Positions 9,186-53,341 of a DNA stretch of 59,217 nt are shown here, one piece after another; the first letter of the stretch is position 1, and each line of letters opens with the position of its first letter. The stretch lies in contig JAFMCI010000009.1 of the NCBI GenBank assembly GCA_017857855.1, positions 1 to 59,217 on the forward strand. The letters run 5' to 3'. Under the pieces are notes generated by a model. It was not told the origin of the DNA. It made no database searches and saw only the letters and a program-made list of their open reading frames with translations. The stretch is from Bacteroidia bacterium (GTDB lineage: Bacteria; Bacteroidota; Bacteroidia; NS11-12g; UBA9320). Both the position numbers and the translations under genes were made by a program.

Positions 9186-10260
9186 ATTACGTGTATTGAT
9201 ATCTGGCGGAGGCACTGGGGGGCATGTATTCCCTGCTATAGCAATTGCCAATGAAATAATGAAAAAGTATCCAGACGCTGCAATCGAATTTGTAGGAGCC
9301 TCAGGTAGAATGGAAATGGAAAAAGTTCCAGCAGCAGGATATAAAATTCATGGACTTTGGATTTCGGGTTTTCAGAGAAGTTGGAGTTTACAGAACCTTA
9401 TGCTCCCATTTAAGGTGATTTTTAGCTTATTGAAATCCTACCGAATTATTAAAGCATTTAAACCCACATTTACGGTTGGGGTAGGAGGCTACGCAAGTGG
9501 ACCGCTTAATTATATGGCTAGTAAAATGAGTGTGCCCGTTTATTTGCAAGAACAAAATTCCTATCCAGGGATAACTAACAAGTTGCTTAAAAATATTGCC
9601 CGAAAAATATGTGTGGCCTATGATGGCATGGAGCTATTTTTCCCTGCCCAAAAAATAGTAGTTACGGGTAATCCAATACGACAAGACTTGCTTGCAGATA
9701 CCGCTAGTCAAAGTGAGGCAAGGGATTATTTTAGATTGGCAAACGATAAAAAAACTGTTTTAGTAGTAGGAGGAAGTCTTGGTGCACGAACCATAAACGA
9801 AGCTATTATGGCAAACTTAGAGAAAATGCAGCATGCCGGAATTCAGCTTTTGTGGCAAACGGGTAAAAACTTCTCCGGTGAATTTGGTGACTTTAGTTGG
9901 GGAACTAGAACCGCATTTATACAACGCATGGACTTGGCTTATCAATGTGCAGATGTTGTTATAAGCAGGGCTGGAGCCATGTCTGTATCGGAACTAGCGG
10001 CGCTAGGTAAACCCACTATTTTTATTCCATCACCCTTTGTGGCTGAAGATCATCAGACTAAAAATGCCATGAGTTTGGTTCAGAAAAATGCAGCTCTCTT
10101 ATGTAAAGATGGAGAAGCCACAGAGAATATAGCGGATATGCTCTTGGAGTTACTCCGGAATCAATCGCAACTGGATATGCTTTCCAAAGAAATCATTAAA
10201 CTAGGGAAGCCCAATGCAGCAGAAAGTATAGTTAACGAAATTATAAAAGACCTTGGATAA
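9175..10260 (+). CDS. murG: UDP-GlcNAc:lipid I GlcNAc transferase MurG
   Basis: MurG converts lipid I to lipid II at the inner face of the membrane. The N-terminal GGGTGGHVFPA motif is at residues 8-18. The second domain carries SRAGAMSVSELAALGKP and AEDHQTKNA, the UDP-GlcNAc binding signatures of this GT28 enzyme. The ATG at 9175 gives 361 residues; an upstream in-frame start at 9142 would add 11 residues from inside ftsW. The gene overlaps ftsW by 11 bases and murC by 8. Confidence 0.95.
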   Translation: MQNKLRVLISGGGTGGHVFPAIAIANEIMKKYPDAAIEFVGASGRMEMEKVPAAGYKIHGLWISGFQRSWSLQNLMLPFKVIFSLLKSYRIIKAFKPTFTVGVGGYASGPLNYMASKMSVPVYLQEQNSYPGITNKLLKNIARKICVAYDGMELFFPAQKIVVTGNPIRQDLLADTASQSEARDYFRLANDKKTVLVVGGSLGARTINEAIMANLEKMQHAGIQLLWQTGKNFSGEFGDFSWGTRTAFIQRMDLAYQCADVVISRAGAMSVSELAALGKPTIFIPSPFVAEDHQTKNAMSLVQKNAALLCKDGEATENIADMLLELLRNQSQLDMLSKEIIKLGKPNAAESIVNEIIKDLG

Positions 10261-19514: not shown

Positions 19515-19540
19515 TCAAATAATCCTTATTGATATAAAAA

Positions 19541-19570
19541 AAATCCCGACCATACGGCCGGGATTTTTTT
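19541..19570 (+). terminator. Rho-independent terminator after ilvE
   Basis: An 8-base-pair stem (aaatcccg with cgggattt) is extended inward by two further pairs and followed by a long T run. It lies 26 bases after the ilvE stop. The A run on the 5' side makes it potentially bidirectional. Confidence 0.88.
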
Positions 19571-46374: not shown

Positions 46375-47721
46375 ATGGGTCAGAATATTAAAATAAAACG
46401 CGGATTAGATATTAATTTAGAAGGTTCTCCTTCGAATGATATTTATAGCGTAAATTCCCCTGCTACGTTCGCAATCAAGCCTACCGATATCAAAGGTCTC
46501 GTACCAAAGATGAACGTTAAGCAAGGTGACGAAGTAAAGGCGGGTGATTGTCTTTTTACAGACAAGAAGAATGAACGAATTTGCTTCACCGCTCCGGTTA
46601 GTGGGGAAATAGCAGAAGTAGTAAGAGGCGACAGAAGAGCTATACTAGCAGTCAAAATATTGGCTGACTCCAAAGTTTCTTTCAAGAGCTTTGATACTAG
46701 CGGATACGAAACCAAAAGTGCCGATGAATTGAAGGAGCTTTTATTAACATCAGGTTTGTGGCCGTTCATAGTGCAACGACCATTTGGTGTCTTAGCAGAT
46801 CCTTCTGTTACTCCAAAAGCTATTCATGTTTCAGGTTTTGATTCTGCTCCTTTGGCAGCAGATGTATCTATTACCTTAAAGGGTGAAGAAGCTAACATAA
46901 AAGCGGGATTTGAAGTACTGAAAAAATTAACAAGTGGTAAAGTTCATCTTAATTTACATTCCGCAAAAGATAGCTCTGTTTATGCCGCTGTTGAAGGAGT
47001 GGAAAGAAATGACTTTAGTGGACCTCACCCAAGTGGTTTAGTAGGTGTTCAAATTAATAAGATTGACCCCATCAATAAAGGAGAAGTGGTATGGACTTTA
47101 AAACCACAGCACGTTGCTTTTATTGGTAAATTCTTTGAAACGGGTAATCTTAATTTGGAACAGACTATTGCGGTAGCAGGTTCAGAAGTATCAAAGCCAG
47201 GATATTACACTACTATAGTAGGCGCAGATGTTTCAGGTTTACTTGCCAATAATTTATTGAGTGATAACGTGAGAGTTATCAGCGGTAATGTGCTAACGGG
47301 TACCAAAATTTTGAAAAATGGCTATCTAGGTATGCATGATACCCAAATTTCGGTGATACCGGAAGGTGATCATTATGAGTTATTAGGATGGTTATTTCCA
47401 TCTTACCCTCGCCCTACTATAAGCTCTACCTTCCCAATATTTAAGTTTTTGAAAAAAACATTTAAAGCAAATACCAATCCGCATGGTGAGCACAGAGCCT
47501 ACGTGGTTACCGGTCAATACGAAAAAGTAATGCCAATGGACATTATGCCTCAGCAATTAATCAAGTCTATCATAGCTAAAGATTTAGAGCAAATGGAAAA
47601 TTTAGGTATATATGAAGTGATAGAAGAAGATATGGCTCTTTGTGAGTTTGTATGTACTTCTAAAATTGATGTACAAAGAGTGCTTTCGGAAGGTTTAGAA
47701 CTAATGGCTGAGGAGTCGTAA
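46375..47721 (+). CDS. nqrA: Na+-translocating NADH:quinone reductase subunit A
   Basis: NqrA is the cytoplasmic subunit of the Na+-NQR complex. The 448-residue protein begins IKIKRGLDINLEG and has RPFGVLADPSVTPKAIHVSG (20 residues) and the late CEFVCTSKIDVQRVL block. It has no membrane segment. It is the first of six nqr genes, with its own promoter; nqrB follows after 11 bases. Confidence 0.96.
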   Translation: MGQNIKIKRGLDINLEGSPSNDIYSVNSPATFAIKPTDIKGLVPKMNVKQGDEVKAGDCLFTDKKNERICFTAPVSGEIAEVVRGDRRAILAVKILADSKVSFKSFDTSGYETKSADELKELLLTSGLWPFIVQRPFGVLADPSVTPKAIHVSGFDSAPLAADVSITLKGEEANIKAGFEVLKKLTSGKVHLNLHSAKDSSVYAAVEGVERNDFSGPHPSGLVGVQINKIDPINKGEVVWTLKPQHVAFIGKFFETGNLNLEQTIAVAGSEVSKPGYYTTIVGADVSGLLANNLLSDNVRVISGNVLTGTKILKNGYLGMHDTQISVIPEGDHYELLGWLFPSYPRPTISSTFPIFKFLKKTFKANTNPHGEHRAYVVTGQYEKVMPMDIMPQQLIKSIIAKDLEQMENLGIYEVIEEDMALCEFVCTSKIDVQRVLSEGLELMAEES

Positions 47722-47732
47722 TAGTTACATAG

Positions 47733-48914
47733 ATGAAATTTTTAAGAGATCAAGTTGATAAATTAAAACCAACCTTTTCAGAGGGTGGTAAGTTAAGTTT
47801 CTTGCATTCTACATTTGATGCATTAGAAACATTCCTCTTTGTGCCCAACCATACTACACATAGTGGTGGTCATATTAGAGACGGTATAGACTTAAAACGT
47901 ACTATGTTTATCGTAGTTATTGCACTGCTTCCTGCACTTATGTTTGGTATGTGGAATTTGGGTTACCAATTTCACAGAGCAACAGGAATGGAAGTTAGCT
48001 TATTCGAAAACTTTTGGTATGGAATGCTTCAAACCTTACCTATCATTATAGTATCTTATGGTGTTGGTTTAGGTATAGAAATGGCTTTTGCGCAGTTCAA
48101 AGGACATCCAGTAAACGAAGGTTTCTTGGTAACAGGATTATTAATACCAATGGTTATGCCTGCAGATGTCCCATTGTGGATGGTAGGCTTAGCTACTGCA
48201 TTTGCAGTAGTTATTGGTAAAGAGGTGTTTGGTGGTACAGGGATGAACTTGTTAAATCCTGCGCTTACTGCCCGTATGTTCCTTTACATTGGTTATACGC
48301 CAGAAATGAGTGGTGATAAGTGTTGGGTGCCTATTGCAGATGGTGTTGCTACCGTGGATGGCTATTCAGGTGCTACAACCTTAGGTAATGTAGGAGTAGC
48401 GAGTTCTAATGGTACACCTTGGAGTGATTCATTGTTGTCATGGGGAACGAGTATATCAGATAGTATTATGGGAACAATTCCTGGATCTATTGCAGAAACT
48501 TCCGTTATTGCAATTTTATTAGGCGCAGTTATATTAATCGTGACAGGCGTAGGTAGTTGGAAAATAATGTTAAGTACCGTTATAGGTGCTTTATTTATGG
48601 GCGGTATTTTGAATCTTGCAGGCGGAAACGCATGGTACGATATGCCAGCGTGGTATCACCTAGTTATCGGTGGATTTATGTTTGGTACTGTATTTATGAC
48701 TACAGATCCTGTATCTGCAGCTCAAACAGAACGAGGTAAATGGATTTATGGATTCTTCATCGGTTTATTAACCGTACTTATTAGAGTATACAACCCGGGT
48801 TACCCAGAAGGAATCATGATGGCGATACTTCTTATGAACGTATTTGCACCATTAATTGACTATAGAGTAATTCAGTCTAACATTAAAACAAGATTAAATC
48901 GTGTCAAAGCTTAA
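47733..48914 (+). CDS. nqrB: Na+-translocating NADH:quinone reductase subunit B
   Basis: NqrB is the large membrane subunit, with about ten helices, carrying riboflavin and covalent FMN. The flavinylation motif SGAT is at residues 212-215, so T215 is the predicted FMN attachment site made by ApbE. GTGMNLLNPALTARMFLYIG (20 residues) and MTTDPVSAAQTERGKWIYG are further family signatures. The length of 393 residues is normal. It overlaps nqrC by 14 bases. Confidence 0.96.
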   Translation: MKFLRDQVDKLKPTFSEGGKLSFLHSTFDALETFLFVPNHTTHSGGHIRDGIDLKRTMFIVVIALLPALMFGMWNLGYQFHRATGMEVSLFENFWYGMLQTLPIIIVSYGVGLGIEMAFAQFKGHPVNEGFLVTGLLIPMVMPADVPLWMVGLATAFAVVIGKEVFGGTGMNLLNPALTARMFLYIGYTPEMSGDKCWVPIADGVATVDGYSGATTLGNVGVASSNGTPWSDSLLSWGTSISDSIMGTIPGSIAETSVIAILLGAVILIVTGVGSWKIMLSTVIGALFMGGILNLAGGNAWYDMPAWYHLVIGGFMFGTVFMTTDPVSAAQTERGKWIYGFFIGLLTVLIRVYNPGYPEGIMMAILLMNVFAPLIDYRVIQSNIKTRLNRVKA

Positions 48915-49638
48915 TAGAAATTCAAACGGGTATATCTTCGGATACGCCATCTTATTAACCCTTGTGTGCGGCACATTGCTAGCATTTGTGTCTGAAGGAT
49001 TAAAGGAAAAACAGAAAGCAGCTATACTTGTAGAAAAACAGAAGTTTATTCTAAGAGCAGGTTTAGGTGCAACTAGTTTAAATGGGTTAACAGATCCAAT
49101 GATTACTGAACTTTATAACCAAGTGGTTAAAGTTGAGACAATCAATTCAAAAGGGGAATCTGTTGAAGCAGATGAGGCCAAGCTTTCTATTTTTAAAGAG
49201 TATAAGAAACCAGCAGCTGAGCGAACACTACCTGTTTATGTAGTAGGGAAAAAAGATAATCCATCTGAAGTAGAATCTTTTGTATTACCCACTTACGGAA
49301 ACGGACTCTGGGATAATATTTGGGCTTATGTAGCTATAGACGGAGATGCTGAGACTATTGAAGGTATCGTGTTTGACCACAAAGGTGAAACTCCAGGATT
49401 AGGTGCAAGAATTACAGACGCTGAAATTCAAGAACGATTTGTAGGTAAGAAATTAGCCTATGAAGCAAGTTCGATAAATGCCCCTGATTTTCAAAAAGGA
49501 GAAGGCAATAACTTTGACAATGAACCTCAAAAAGTAGATGGTATGAGTGGAGCTACAATCACTGGAACCGGTGTAAATGCAATGCTTGATGCATATATGA
49601 CCTTATATCAACCGTACTTAGTTACTAAAAAGAAATAA
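48901..49638 (+). CDS. nqrC: Na+-translocating NADH:quinone reductase subunit C
   Basis: NqrC has one N-terminal membrane helix (about 9-29) and a periplasmic FMN domain. The flavinylation motif SGAT lies at residues 216-219, with T219 as the predicted FMN site (T225 in Vibrio). GETPGLGARITD is also typical. The start is a GTG inside nqrB. The 245-residue length fits. nqrD follows after one base. Confidence 0.96.
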   Translation: MSKLNRNSNGYIFGYAILLTLVCGTLLAFVSEGLKEKQKAAILVEKQKFILRAGLGATSLNGLTDPMITELYNQVVKVETINSKGESVEADEAKLSIFKEYKKPAAERTLPVYVVGKKDNPSEVESFVLPTYGNGLWDNIWAYVAIDGDAETIEGIVFDHKGETPGLGARITDAEIQERFVGKKLAYEASSINAPDFQKGEGNNFDNEPQKVDGMSGATITGTGVNAMLDAYMTLYQPYLVTKKK

Positions 49639-49639
49639 T

Positions 49640-50299
49640 ATGAGCACAGAAGTAATCGATAAAGTAGAAGTGAAAAAAGAGACAGAAGCTCTTTTTTCAA
49701 AAAAACGCAAATCCCTGGTTAGCAATCCAATGGATAGTGACAATCCTATTACAATACAAGTATTGGGAATATGCTCAGCTCTAGCCGTAACTATTGCATT
49801 ACAAGGAACTCTTATTATGGCTTTTGCTGTAATGTTTGTGGTTATGATGGCTAACGTTGTAATCTCTGCACTTAGAAATACAATACCAAATAGAATAAGA
49901 ATCATCGTACAATTAGTAGTTGTAGCTACATTAGTGGCTACCGTAGATCAGACACTCAGAGCTTTTGCTTACGAGCAATCAAAAGCTCTTTCGGTTTTTG
50001 TTGGTCTTATTATTACTAACTGTATCGTTATGGGTCGTCTCGAGGCTTTTGCTATGGGAAACAAACCATGGGATTCACTATTGGACGGTTTTGGAAATTC
50101 TTTGGGTTACGCTTGGATAATTATTGCCATCGCGTTTGTTAGAGAATTATTAGGTGCTGGTAAATTATTGGGATTTCAAGTACTGGATAAAGCATGGTAT
50201 ACTGCTAACGGATTTTTCGCAACTCCCGCTGCAGCATGTATCATTTTAGGTGTTATCATCTGGATACTTCGTGCAAGAAGCGGTTATGTAGAAGATTAA
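49640..50299 (+). CDS. nqrD: Na+-translocating NADH:quinone reductase subunit D
   Basis: NqrD is a membrane subunit with about six helices. Cysteines C45 (LGICSALAV) and C128 (ITNCIVMGR) are at the positions that, with two from NqrE, ligate an iron centre in the middle of the membrane. At 219 residues it has a somewhat extended N-terminus (about 33 residues). RELLGAGKLLG and the late ACIILG segment are family features. Confidence 0.96.
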   Translation: MSTEVIDKVEVKKETEALFSKKRKSLVSNPMDSDNPITIQVLGICSALAVTIALQGTLIMAFAVMFVVMMANVVISALRNTIPNRIRIIVQLVVVATLVATVDQTLRAFAYEQSKALSVFVGLIITNCIVMGRLEAFAMGNKPWDSLLDGFGNSLGYAWIIIAIAFVRELLGAGKLLGFQVLDKAWYTANGFFATPAAACIILGVIIWILRARSGYVED

Positions 50300-50334
50300 T
50301 AGTTGTACGTAAATAATATTAAGATTTTTAAAAA

Positions 50335-50955
50335 ATGGAAAATTTATTAAACATATTCGTAAGGTCAATCTTTATTGACAATATGATATTCGCTTACTTC
50401 CTAGGTATGTGCTCATACTTGGCAGTATCCAAAAAATATAAAACAGCTACAGGACTAGGCGCAGCTGTAATTTTTGTGTTAGCCATTACAGTTCCACTTA
50501 ACTGGTTAGCCTATAATTATTTATTAAAAGAAGGTGCATTAACTTGGGTAAGTGAAAACTTAGCTGATGTAGATTTGGAAGTACTTAAATTTATCGTATT
50601 CATTGCAATTGTTGCAGCTTTTGTACAATTGATAGAAATGATAGTAGAGAAGTTTTCACCTTCACTGTACAATGCGTTGGGTATTTTCTTGCCTCTAATC
50701 GCAGTAAACTGCTCCATTCTTGGTGCAGCCTTGTTTTTACCTTCACGTGAGTACAATTTAGCCGAAGCGACTACATTTGGTGTTGGTTCAGGTGTTGGAT
50801 GGTTTTTAGCAGTAGTGTCGCTTGCCGCTATCAGAGAAAAAATGGCTTACAGTGATGTGCCTAAGCCATTAAGAGGATTGGGAATTACTTTCATCGTTGT
50901 GGGTCTTATGGCCTTTGGCTTTATGAGTTTCGCAGGATTTAAACTTCCATTTTAA
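50335..50955 (+). CDS. nqrE: Na+-translocating NADH:quinone reductase subunit E
   Basis: NqrE is the paralogous, inverted partner of NqrD. It has about six membrane helices and cysteines C26 (LGMCSYLAV) and C126 (AVNCSILG) that complete the iron site. [20 protein letters not shown] (20 residues) at the N-terminus and [10 protein letters not shown] near the end are typical. It has 206 residues and lies 35 bases after nqrD. Confidence 0.96.
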
Positions 50956-50969
50956 GAAAAGTAAGAAAA

Positions 50970-52292
50970 ATGTTATTAGCAATAAATCAAACAGTAATCA
51001 TACTAGCGGCAGTAGTATTTACGCTCGTTATAATACTCTTAGTAACTATGCTTGTAGTTGCAGCTAAAAGATTAGTAAACTCAGGTGCAGTAAAGCTGAC
51101 CATTAATGGAGAAAGAGAAGTAGAAGTGGAAGCGGGTGGTACCCTCTTGGGTGCATTACAACAAGCAAATCTATTTTTACCTTCTGCATGCGGCGGAGGT
51201 GGTACTTGTGCAATGTGCAAATGTCAAGTTATGTCTGGTGGAGGTGACATACTTCCTACAGAAACAGGACATATTAAACGTAAAGATCAAAAGGATAATT
51301 GGAGACTCGCTTGCCAAGTTAAGGTGAAAGAGAATATGGTAGTTGAAGTTCCAGAGGAAGTTTTTGGGATTAAAAAATGGGATTGTACAGTTGTTTCAAA
51401 CTATAACGTAGCATCATTCATCAAAGAATTTGTAGTTAGACTCCCAGAAGGTGAGCATCTTGATTTCGAAGCAGGAGGATATATTCAAGTGGATGTTCCA
51501 CCAATAGAAGTTGATTTTAGTACTATAGATATTACTGCTCATCCAGAGTTGGTTGCATTGGGTAGAGACCCTATGGATTTTAAATCTGAGTGGGATAAAT
51601 ATGCTCTTTGGGATCTCAAAATGATTAATGATGAACCAATTTTTAGAGCATACTCGATGGCTAATCACCCAGCAGAGGGTAATATCGTTATGCTGAACAT
51701 ACGTATTGCCACCCCGCCATGGGATAGAAAAAATAACAAATGGATGGATGTAAATCCGGGGATTTGTTCTTCATATGTTTTCGGTTGTAAACCAGGCGAT
51801 AAAGTAACTGTCTCAGGCCCTTATGGAGAATTCTTCATAAAAGAAACTGGAGCAGAAATGCTGTACATAGGGGGTGGAGCTGGAATGGCGCCTATGCGTT
51901 CTCATCTTTTCCATTTATTTCACACACTAAAAACTGGTAGAAAAGTAACCTATTGGTATGGAGGAAGAAGTAAAAGAGAATTGTTTTATCTAGATCACTT
52001 CAATAAAATAGCTGCAGACTTCCCTAACTTTAAATTTTTCATCGTCCTATCGGATGCTGTGCCAGAAGATAACTGGGTTGCTAAAACAGATGTTAACGAT
52101 ACCACTGGAGATGGATTTACGGGCTTTGTACATCAAGCCGTGATAGATCAGTACTTAAGTAAACATGAGTCGCCTGAAGATATTGAATTCTATTTCTGTG
52201 GACCTCCGATGATGAACCAAGCGGTACTTAAAATGTGTGACGATTGGGGCGTTCCTCCTGAAAATGTGGCATTTGACGATTTTGGCGGTTAA
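50970..52292 (+). CDS. nqrF: Na+-translocating NADH:quinone reductase subunit F
   Basis: NqrF takes electrons from NADH. It has an N-terminal membrane helix (about 8-28), a plant-type 2Fe-2S domain with C74, C80, C83 and C115 ([10 protein letters not shown] then LAC), an FAD domain with RAYSMAN, and an NADH domain with [12 protein letters not shown] and [13 protein letters not shown]. The length of 440 residues is slightly above that in Vibrio. Its stop codon lies 42 bases before the terminator-like hairpin inside apbE. Confidence 0.97.
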
Positions 52293-52312: not shown

Positions 52313-53341
52313 ATGAATTTATATTATAAAACTAAAGGCAGAGTAATCTGCCTTTTTTTTGTGTTATCAATACTGGAGTCTTGCAGTAGTGATAAGAAAA
52401 TAGTTACCCAGAGACTTGAAGGTAATGCGATTGGAACAACATATCATATTTCCTATTTGGGTGACGAGATTAAAAATTTATCCCAAAAGATTGACTCCAT
52501 AACGGTTGCGGTAAATCACGGATTATCCACGTATCAGGTTAATTCGATGGTAACAGCATTCAATTCAAATTCTGATTCTATTTGGAAAATTCCCTCAGAG
52601 TATGATCATTATACTGACGATATGCAGCATTTTATCGAGATGCTGACTTTATCTAAAACGATTACGCAAGAAACGTTAGGTGCTTTTGATCCATCTGCAG
52701 CATCACTTTTTGAAGTCTATAATAGGGCTAAAAAAGATGGTGTATTTATGAAAGATTCAGATGTTGAAGAGTGCAAAAAGCATCAAGGAATGGAAAAAAT
52801 ACAGTTTGATGAAAAGGGTAATCCCTATAAACTAGATTCTCTTGTTGCAGTTAATTTTAATGCTATCGCCAAGGGTTATTTAGTAGATATTATTTCGCTT
52901 TATCTGGAAACCAACGGGGTTATGGATTTTATGGTAGAGGTGGGTGGAGAACTTAGAGTGAAAGGTAAGAATGATGAAGGAACATTTTGGAAGGTGGGCG
53001 TAAATACACCAATAATCAATGCAAATCCTTCAGACTTCTTCACTGTCCTGGAGCTTGAAAACGTATCCTTAGCCACAAGTGGAAATTACCAAAACTTTTA
53101 TGAAGTTAATGGAAATATAATTGGTCACACCTTAGATCCTAGAAGTGGTAAGCCGGTTATAAATACATTGAAAAGTGCAAGTGTGCTGCACGATTATTGT
53201 GCCGTTGCAGATGCGTATGCTACCGCATGTATGGTCTTGGGTCTGGATGAGGCAACTAAGCTTATAAAAGCAAATAAGAGCCTTTCAGCCTATTTTATTT
53301 ATGACGATGGAACTTCACTGAAGGGCGTGTACGTAGAATAA
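52313..53341 (+). CDS. apbE: FAD:protein FMN transferase ApbE
   Basis: ApbE attaches FMN to the SGAT threonines of NqrB and NqrC. The 342-residue product is a lipoprotein with lipobox cysteine C24 (LESC), so it acts in the periplasm facing NqrC. Family motifs include GNAIGTTYHISY, VNFNAIAKGYLVD, FMVEVGGELRVKG and HTLDPRSGKPV. It starts 20 bases after nqrF and completes the operon. Codons 8-16, in the signal peptide, form a strong terminator-like hairpin with a T run. Confidence 0.95.
   Translation: MNLYYKTKGRVICLFFVLSILESCSSDKKIVTQRLEGNAIGTTYHISYLGDEIKNLSQKIDSITVAVNHGLSTYQVNSMVTAFNSNSDSIWKIPSEYDHYTDDMQHFIEMLTLSKTITQETLGAFDPSAASLFEVYNRAKKDGVFMKDSDVEECKKHQGMEKIQFDEKGNPYKLDSLVAVNFNAIAKGYLVDIISLYLETNGVMDFMVEVGGELRVKGKNDEGTFWKVGVNTPIINANPSDFFTVLELENVSLATSGNYQNFYEVNGNIIGHTLDPRSGKPVINTLKSASVLHDYCAVADAYATACMVLGLDEATKLIKANKSLSAYFIYDDGTSLKGVYVE
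52334..52360 (+). terminator. Terminator-like hairpin inside the apbE signal peptide codons
   Basis: A perfect nine-pair stem (52334-52342 with 52347-52355) closes on a GTAA loop and is followed by a T run through 52360. It begins 42 bases after the nqrF stop and encodes apbE residues 8-16. As RNA it has all features of an intrinsic terminator, so it may end most nqr transcripts before apbE unless ribosomes starting at 52313 open it. Confidence 0.7.

Follow-up and report, generated by a model that had tools for sequence, protein, structure and literature searches.

A transcription terminator of the nqr operon probably lies within the signal-peptide codons of apbE in a Bacteroidia bacterium

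In a member of the Bacteroidia (Bacteroidota; Bacteroidia; NS11-12g; UBA9320), a hairpin followed by a T run just downstream of nqrF probably serves as the intrinsic terminator of the nqrA-F operon while lying within the signal-peptide codons of the next gene, apbE, such that partial read-through would give low levels of ApbE. The window that we analysed comprises 59,217 nucleotides (contig JAFMCI010000009.1 of assembly GCA_017857855.1, positions 1-59,217). On its forward strand, the nqrA-nqrF operon (46375-52292) was recognized from its ORFs and from Pfam matches to NQRA domains and to the Fer2, FAD- and NAD-binding domains of NqrF, whose gene spans 50970-52292 (stop codon at 52290-52292). 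The gene that follows on the same strand, apbE, encodes a flavin transferase lipoprotein precursor of 342 residues (52313-53341; Pfam PF02424, E=1e-63), with its ATG at 52313, 20 nt past the nqrF stop, and an N-terminus (MNLYYKTKGRVICLFFVLSILESC) that reads as a lipoprotein signal peptide. As described in an earlier note on this DNA, a nine-pair hairpin with a GTAA loop and a T run occupies apbE codons 8-16: the stem arms (AAAGGCAGA/GTAA/TCTGCCTTT), supported by folding, covariation and codon use, lie at 52334-52355 in codons 8-15, with the loop at 52343-52346, and the T8 run lies at 52353-52360 in codons 14-16 (CTT TTT TTT). The first three T pair with AAA and the remaining T form the U-tract. 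Codons 8-16 (AAA GGC AGA GTA ATC TGC CTT TTT TTT) are translated as K G R V I C L F F, and there is no in-frame stop between the apbE ATG and the T run.

With its G+C-rich stem, its short loop and a U-tract directly 3', the apbE hairpin has the form of an intrinsic (Rho-independent) terminator. An 81-nt stretch folds at -19.7 kcal/mol versus a mean of -10.15 for shuffled sequences (z -3.67; 0 of 200 shuffles), and the hairpin alone at -12.3 kcal/mol. On a d'Aubenton-Carafa-type scale calibrated on E. coli, the site scores 39.6, which is the 87.5th percentile among 40 after-stop terminators in 629 kb of this genome; the strength of the hairpin is that of the genome's ordinary terminators. The pattern AGGCAGN{3,8}CTGCCTTTTT occurs a single time in the 2.2-Mb genome, and a repeat element was rejected on this ground. 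No known RNA family matched the nqrF-apbE junction, and no Bacteroidota-type promoter (TTTG-N17-23-TAnnTTTG) was detected in the window.

The hairpin is widely conserved among relatives, all of them uncultured genomes of varying completeness. At least 20 apbE loci of the family have an in-register hairpin of the GGCAG type in their signal-peptide codons; the count covers loci where apbE lies behind nqrF and loci truncated at a contig end immediately before or after. Nearly every sampled family apbE directly after nqrF retains the hairpin and the T run, at ApbE identities to the window protein that go down to 36-58% (most 50-58%; 40% in G010), and the T run is kept together with the stem (T6-T8 in nearly all relatives). 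The stem is altered in G036 (AAAGGCGGT/ACCGCCTTT), G009 and G037 carry unrelated hairpins and T runs at the equivalent position in apbE, and in G011 (L025) a comparable hairpin was looked for and not found. Among 17 distinct alignable hairpins, 94.8% of the alignment cells are paired, three of the nine pairs are changed on both sides and the covariation score exceeds that of 500 of 500 shuffles; G-U pairs are present in the stems. The earlier note had proposed such an alignment of apbE 5' ends, and its outcome is the opposite of a stem that is lost while the signal peptide persists: the stem is kept by compensating pairs while residues in and around it change. A congener (G018) serves as a natural control, as its terminator is non-coding (+21 to +57 after nqrF), its apbE starts at +236 and this apbE has neither the hairpin nor KGRVICLFF.

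We compared codon use in 16 genomes at the 99 non-Met/Trp ApbE columns that show no variation or a single exception. One codon is used throughout in just four of these columns (Gly9 GGC, Cys13 TGC, Leu14 CTT and Phe15 TTT), all of them in the hairpin, while the commonest codon averages 58% in the remaining invariant columns; the 16 genomes share ancestry and the counts are not independent events, with the contrast to the other 95 columns acting as the control. Gly, Cys and Leu are always encoded by GGC, TGC and CTT at the hairpin positions, although these are minority codons that make up 14%, 20% and 21%, respectively, of the codons for those residues in the same apbE genes, and the lipobox Cys close by is encoded by TGC in 5 genomes and by TGT in 11. 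At codon 10, Arg and Ser interchange via AGN with the AG retained. These patterns point to selection acting on the nucleotides, not the residues, at the apbE hairpin.

Terminators are also common at nqrF ends across the class. Scoring hairpin plus T sites of at most -9 kcal/mol located no more than 100 nt from the nqrF stop, we found a terminator behind nqrF in 67 of 88 class-wide junctions (41 of 55 without apbE next and 26 of 33 with apbE). At the 26 sites with apbE, the ATG precedes the terminator in 10, likely follows it in 15 and is ambiguous in one (G226). The ten cases with the ATG before the terminator come from the window's own family (four), family f10 (five) and f6 (one, G312), and the stem sequences are unrelated between the own family, family f10 and G312. 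Because it is present behind nqrF with or without apbE, and is non-coding in G018, the terminator can be assigned to the nqr operon irrespective of the gene that comes next, and in at least two families the 5' codons of apbE have come to overlie it. The terminator proposed in the earlier note is thus strongly supported by its ordinary-terminator strength, the hairpin-specific codon constraint, the covariation and the class-wide nqrF terminators; that it is nqr's regardless of apbE, and that the architecture recurs at other operon junctions (see below), are points beyond that note. Embedded nqr terminators have a median score of 16.1 versus 28.9 for those without apbE (p = 0.052; class-wide, with the E. 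coli-calibrated score), which is compatible with tuned leakiness and partial termination, but codon constraint could also explain it.

We propose that in this lineage apbE starts so near nqrF that the nqr terminator gets read as signal-peptide codons, with the A-tract coding for the initial, lysine-containing segment of the peptide and the T-tract for Leu-Phe-Phe in its hydrophobic core. With its ATG 5' of the hairpin, apbE can yield full-length mRNA only by read-through, whichever promoter is used. The majority of polymerases would stop at about 52358-52362, the terminated nqr mRNA would keep a protective 3' hairpin, and the minority that reads through would provide a small ApbE supply for flavinylating NqrB and NqrC, with partial termination setting a low ApbE:Nqr ratio. 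We infer termination in the cell, partial read-through and the setting of this ratio from sequence data, with which the first of two alternatives in the earlier note, that most nqr transcripts end at the hairpin and leave little ApbE, would fit best. ApbE installs FMN on NqrB and NqrC, and the Vibrio apbE gene is also located behind nqr (PMC5655446, PMC12052999). Reasoning from this catalytic role in attaching FMN, a sub-stoichiometric supply of ApbE would therefore suffice. The terminated RNAs would hold the apbE ATG without a stop codon, and ribosomes starting there would therefore need rescue; as non-stop mRNAs, these transcripts predict tmRNA tagging, and a tmRNA gene is found in the genome (G000:C93:13839-14210, 125 bits).

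Alternatively, termination might be gated by translation, in line with the second possibility of the earlier note: a ribosome quickly reinitiating at the apbE ATG would occupy the 5' arm before polymerase has moved past the T run, and efficient apbE translation would lead to less termination. We consider this doubtful. The layout in relatives is favourable to such gating, with the ATG always upstream of the stem at a narrow spacing (stem start 21-33 nt past the ATG) and the nqrF stop close to or overlapping the ATG (-17 to +23 nt), and opening of a short-ORF terminator by a ribosome is experimentally established for S. gallolyticus pil1 (PMC3894217). However, the ATG and the T run are only ~45 nt apart, which gives initiation little time, signal-peptide anatomy may by itself account for the narrow spacing, and no upstream alternative pairing is conserved: a search for an upstream anti-terminator arm returned no conserved match, and chance-like 7-nt matches in three genomes only. 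A stem that starts 21-33 nt past the ATG is outside the footprint of the initiating ribosome, so several codons must be translated before polymerase clears the T run; it is possible that translation of the first apbE codons raises read-through. That the main effect of the hairpin is on translation or on the stability of the mRNA, by slowing apbE initiation or by protecting a processed nqrF 3' end, and not on termination, strikes us as improbable. A stable stem 21 nt past an ATG is expected to hinder translation and a 3' hairpin fits RNA protection equally well, yet the T run is conserved alongside the stem and the non-coding versions behind nqrF without apbE show a normal terminator form.

Protein-level constraint would account for the inverted repeat as a by-product of KGR-x-ICLFF being kept for the signal peptide, and the residues are indeed identical in most close relatives. 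We nonetheless rejected this explanation as highly implausible, since single-codon use falls at exactly the hairpin residues, the Arg/Ser exchange preserves AG, hairpins and residues at the equivalent place are unrelated in G009 and G037, and G018 retains ApbE while the motif is gone once apbE starts after the terminator. An inverted repeat is equally a DNA feature, such that a palindrome bound by a regulator, as opposed to an RNA signal, could be envisaged, but the G-U pairs in the stems, the unrelated sequences between lineages and the T run on one side only make this very unlikely.

Partial intrinsic terminators are located between operon genes at E. coli rplL-rpoB and rpsU-dnaG. The nqr-apbE terminator resembles these in that it would likewise lower the output of a downstream gene relative to the upstream genes cotranscribed with it, but is placed inside the signal-peptide codons of that downstream gene and not between the genes. 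Similar to arfA of E. coli and brfA of B. subtilis (PMC6881298), apbE has an intrinsic terminator in coding sequence that, as predicted from the sequence, would yield non-stop mRNA. The brfA terminator lies close to the ORF's 3' end and functions in control of a rescue factor by tmRNA, whereas that in apbE lies close to the 5' end, at a junction between operon and next gene, where it would end the upstream operon; moreover, apbE encodes a flavin transferase and not a rescue factor of the arfA or brfA kind. The pil1 attenuator of S. gallolyticus (PMC3894217) shares with apbE a terminator hairpin that can be covered by a translating ribosome, but the pil1 ORF is a dedicated leader peptide with repeats, whereas the apbE ORF begins with the regulated enzyme's own signal peptide and its control by ribosomes is only possible. 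In E. coli and Borrelia, 3' ends within ORFs (PMC7815308, PMC10319736) resemble the predicted apbE ends in being premature ends in coding sequences; those are mapped RNA ends of mixed origin, while the apbE terminator is defined by its sequence, covaries and is located in signal-peptide codons. Partial terminators in operons, terminators opened by ribosomes (PMC3894217) and terminators that lie in coding sequence (brfA, PMC6881298) are already known, and we found no report of terminators in signal-peptide codons at operon junctions, with the incomplete literature coverage making this weak evidence of absence. At apbE, 27 bases maintained by nucleotide selection would serve both as a control signal of the RNA and as a targeting signal of the protein, a simple means of setting how much maturation factor is made relative to its enzyme complex, with non-stop mRNAs predicted as routine products. 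Automated terminator searches that skip coding sequence would miss such sites.

The sharing of RNA and targeting signals is seen at several unrelated junctions of this one genome. We scanned 629 kb (28%) of it for compact same-strand hairpin plus T sites inside mechanically called ORFs, with ORF ends excluded, and found seven ORF-internal sites, four of which, including apbE, fall within the first 90 nt, a portion that makes up 8.2% of the coding length; this concentration led us to reject a chance origin (binomial p = 0.0013). Each of the four sites lies in a gene that has a signal-peptide-like or hydrophobic N-terminus and abuts or overlaps its upstream neighbour. An LptC-family lipoprotein gene (L150:5977-6579, G000:C7), which starts 6 nt past a TPR-protein gene, has a hairpin of -20 kcal/mol in its signal-peptide codons (L150:6002-6034) that is 97.6% paired across the genus, with both sides changed at seven pairs (28 such cells; 0 of 500 shuffles), and that is absent from lptC in genus g3. 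A BioY-family gene (L151:9348-9896, G000:C8), which overlaps an upstream DUF4197 gene, has a hairpin in its hydrophobic N-terminal codons (L151:9397-9425) that is 98.2% paired and conserved in about a dozen relatives. The fourth site, a terminator-like hairpin (9433-9472, -29.2 kcal/mol), is in the signal-peptide codons of a 485-residue lipoprotein gene on the minus strand (L165:8041-9498, G000:C14) situated between genes for a 737-residue secreted protein and a 937-residue TonB-dependent-receptor-like protein; its relatives have changed stems in the same place, ending 11-12 nt before the lipobox Cys. Export signals of the proteins encoded at apbE and at least three other junctions thus seem to have a second function in stopping transcription. 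A plausible reason for the recurrence is that an A-tract, a G+C stem and a T-tract are translated into basic residues and then Leu/Phe, as in a signal peptide. That signal peptides are the sole host of such terminators was not sustained, as a hydrophobic N-terminus is found at four of four sites but also in 46% of the mechanical ORFs (p 0.045).

In a control scan of 250 kb of E. coli K-12, zero real coding cases occurred in the first 90 nt, the sole hit there being the non-coding dsrA sRNA (2025223-2025313), while 400 kb of G018 gave one first-90-nt site (bioY) and no enrichment in this genome alone. Signal-peptide codons of Bacteroidota could more broadly be a standing home for intrinsic terminators at many junctions, where escape would need the signal peptide to be translated promptly, so that exported or accessory proteins would have their transcription gated by their own translation start, a generalization that we think rather unlikely to hold. 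Terminator-like sites were also observed outside this family: a strong hairpin of -19.4 kcal/mol with a T8 run located 109 nt into a rimM-like gene (L253:5416-5456, G362), and a hairpin on the minus strand at the hydrophobic N-terminus (MAQKKIDWKKYILLTGVLFLFPL) of a 229-residue, possibly SCO1-like protein (L256:18189-18223, G391). Elsewhere in the window, at 19538-19569, lies a symmetrical terminator that has a T run on each strand (AAAAAATCCCGACCATACGGCCGGGATTTTTT).
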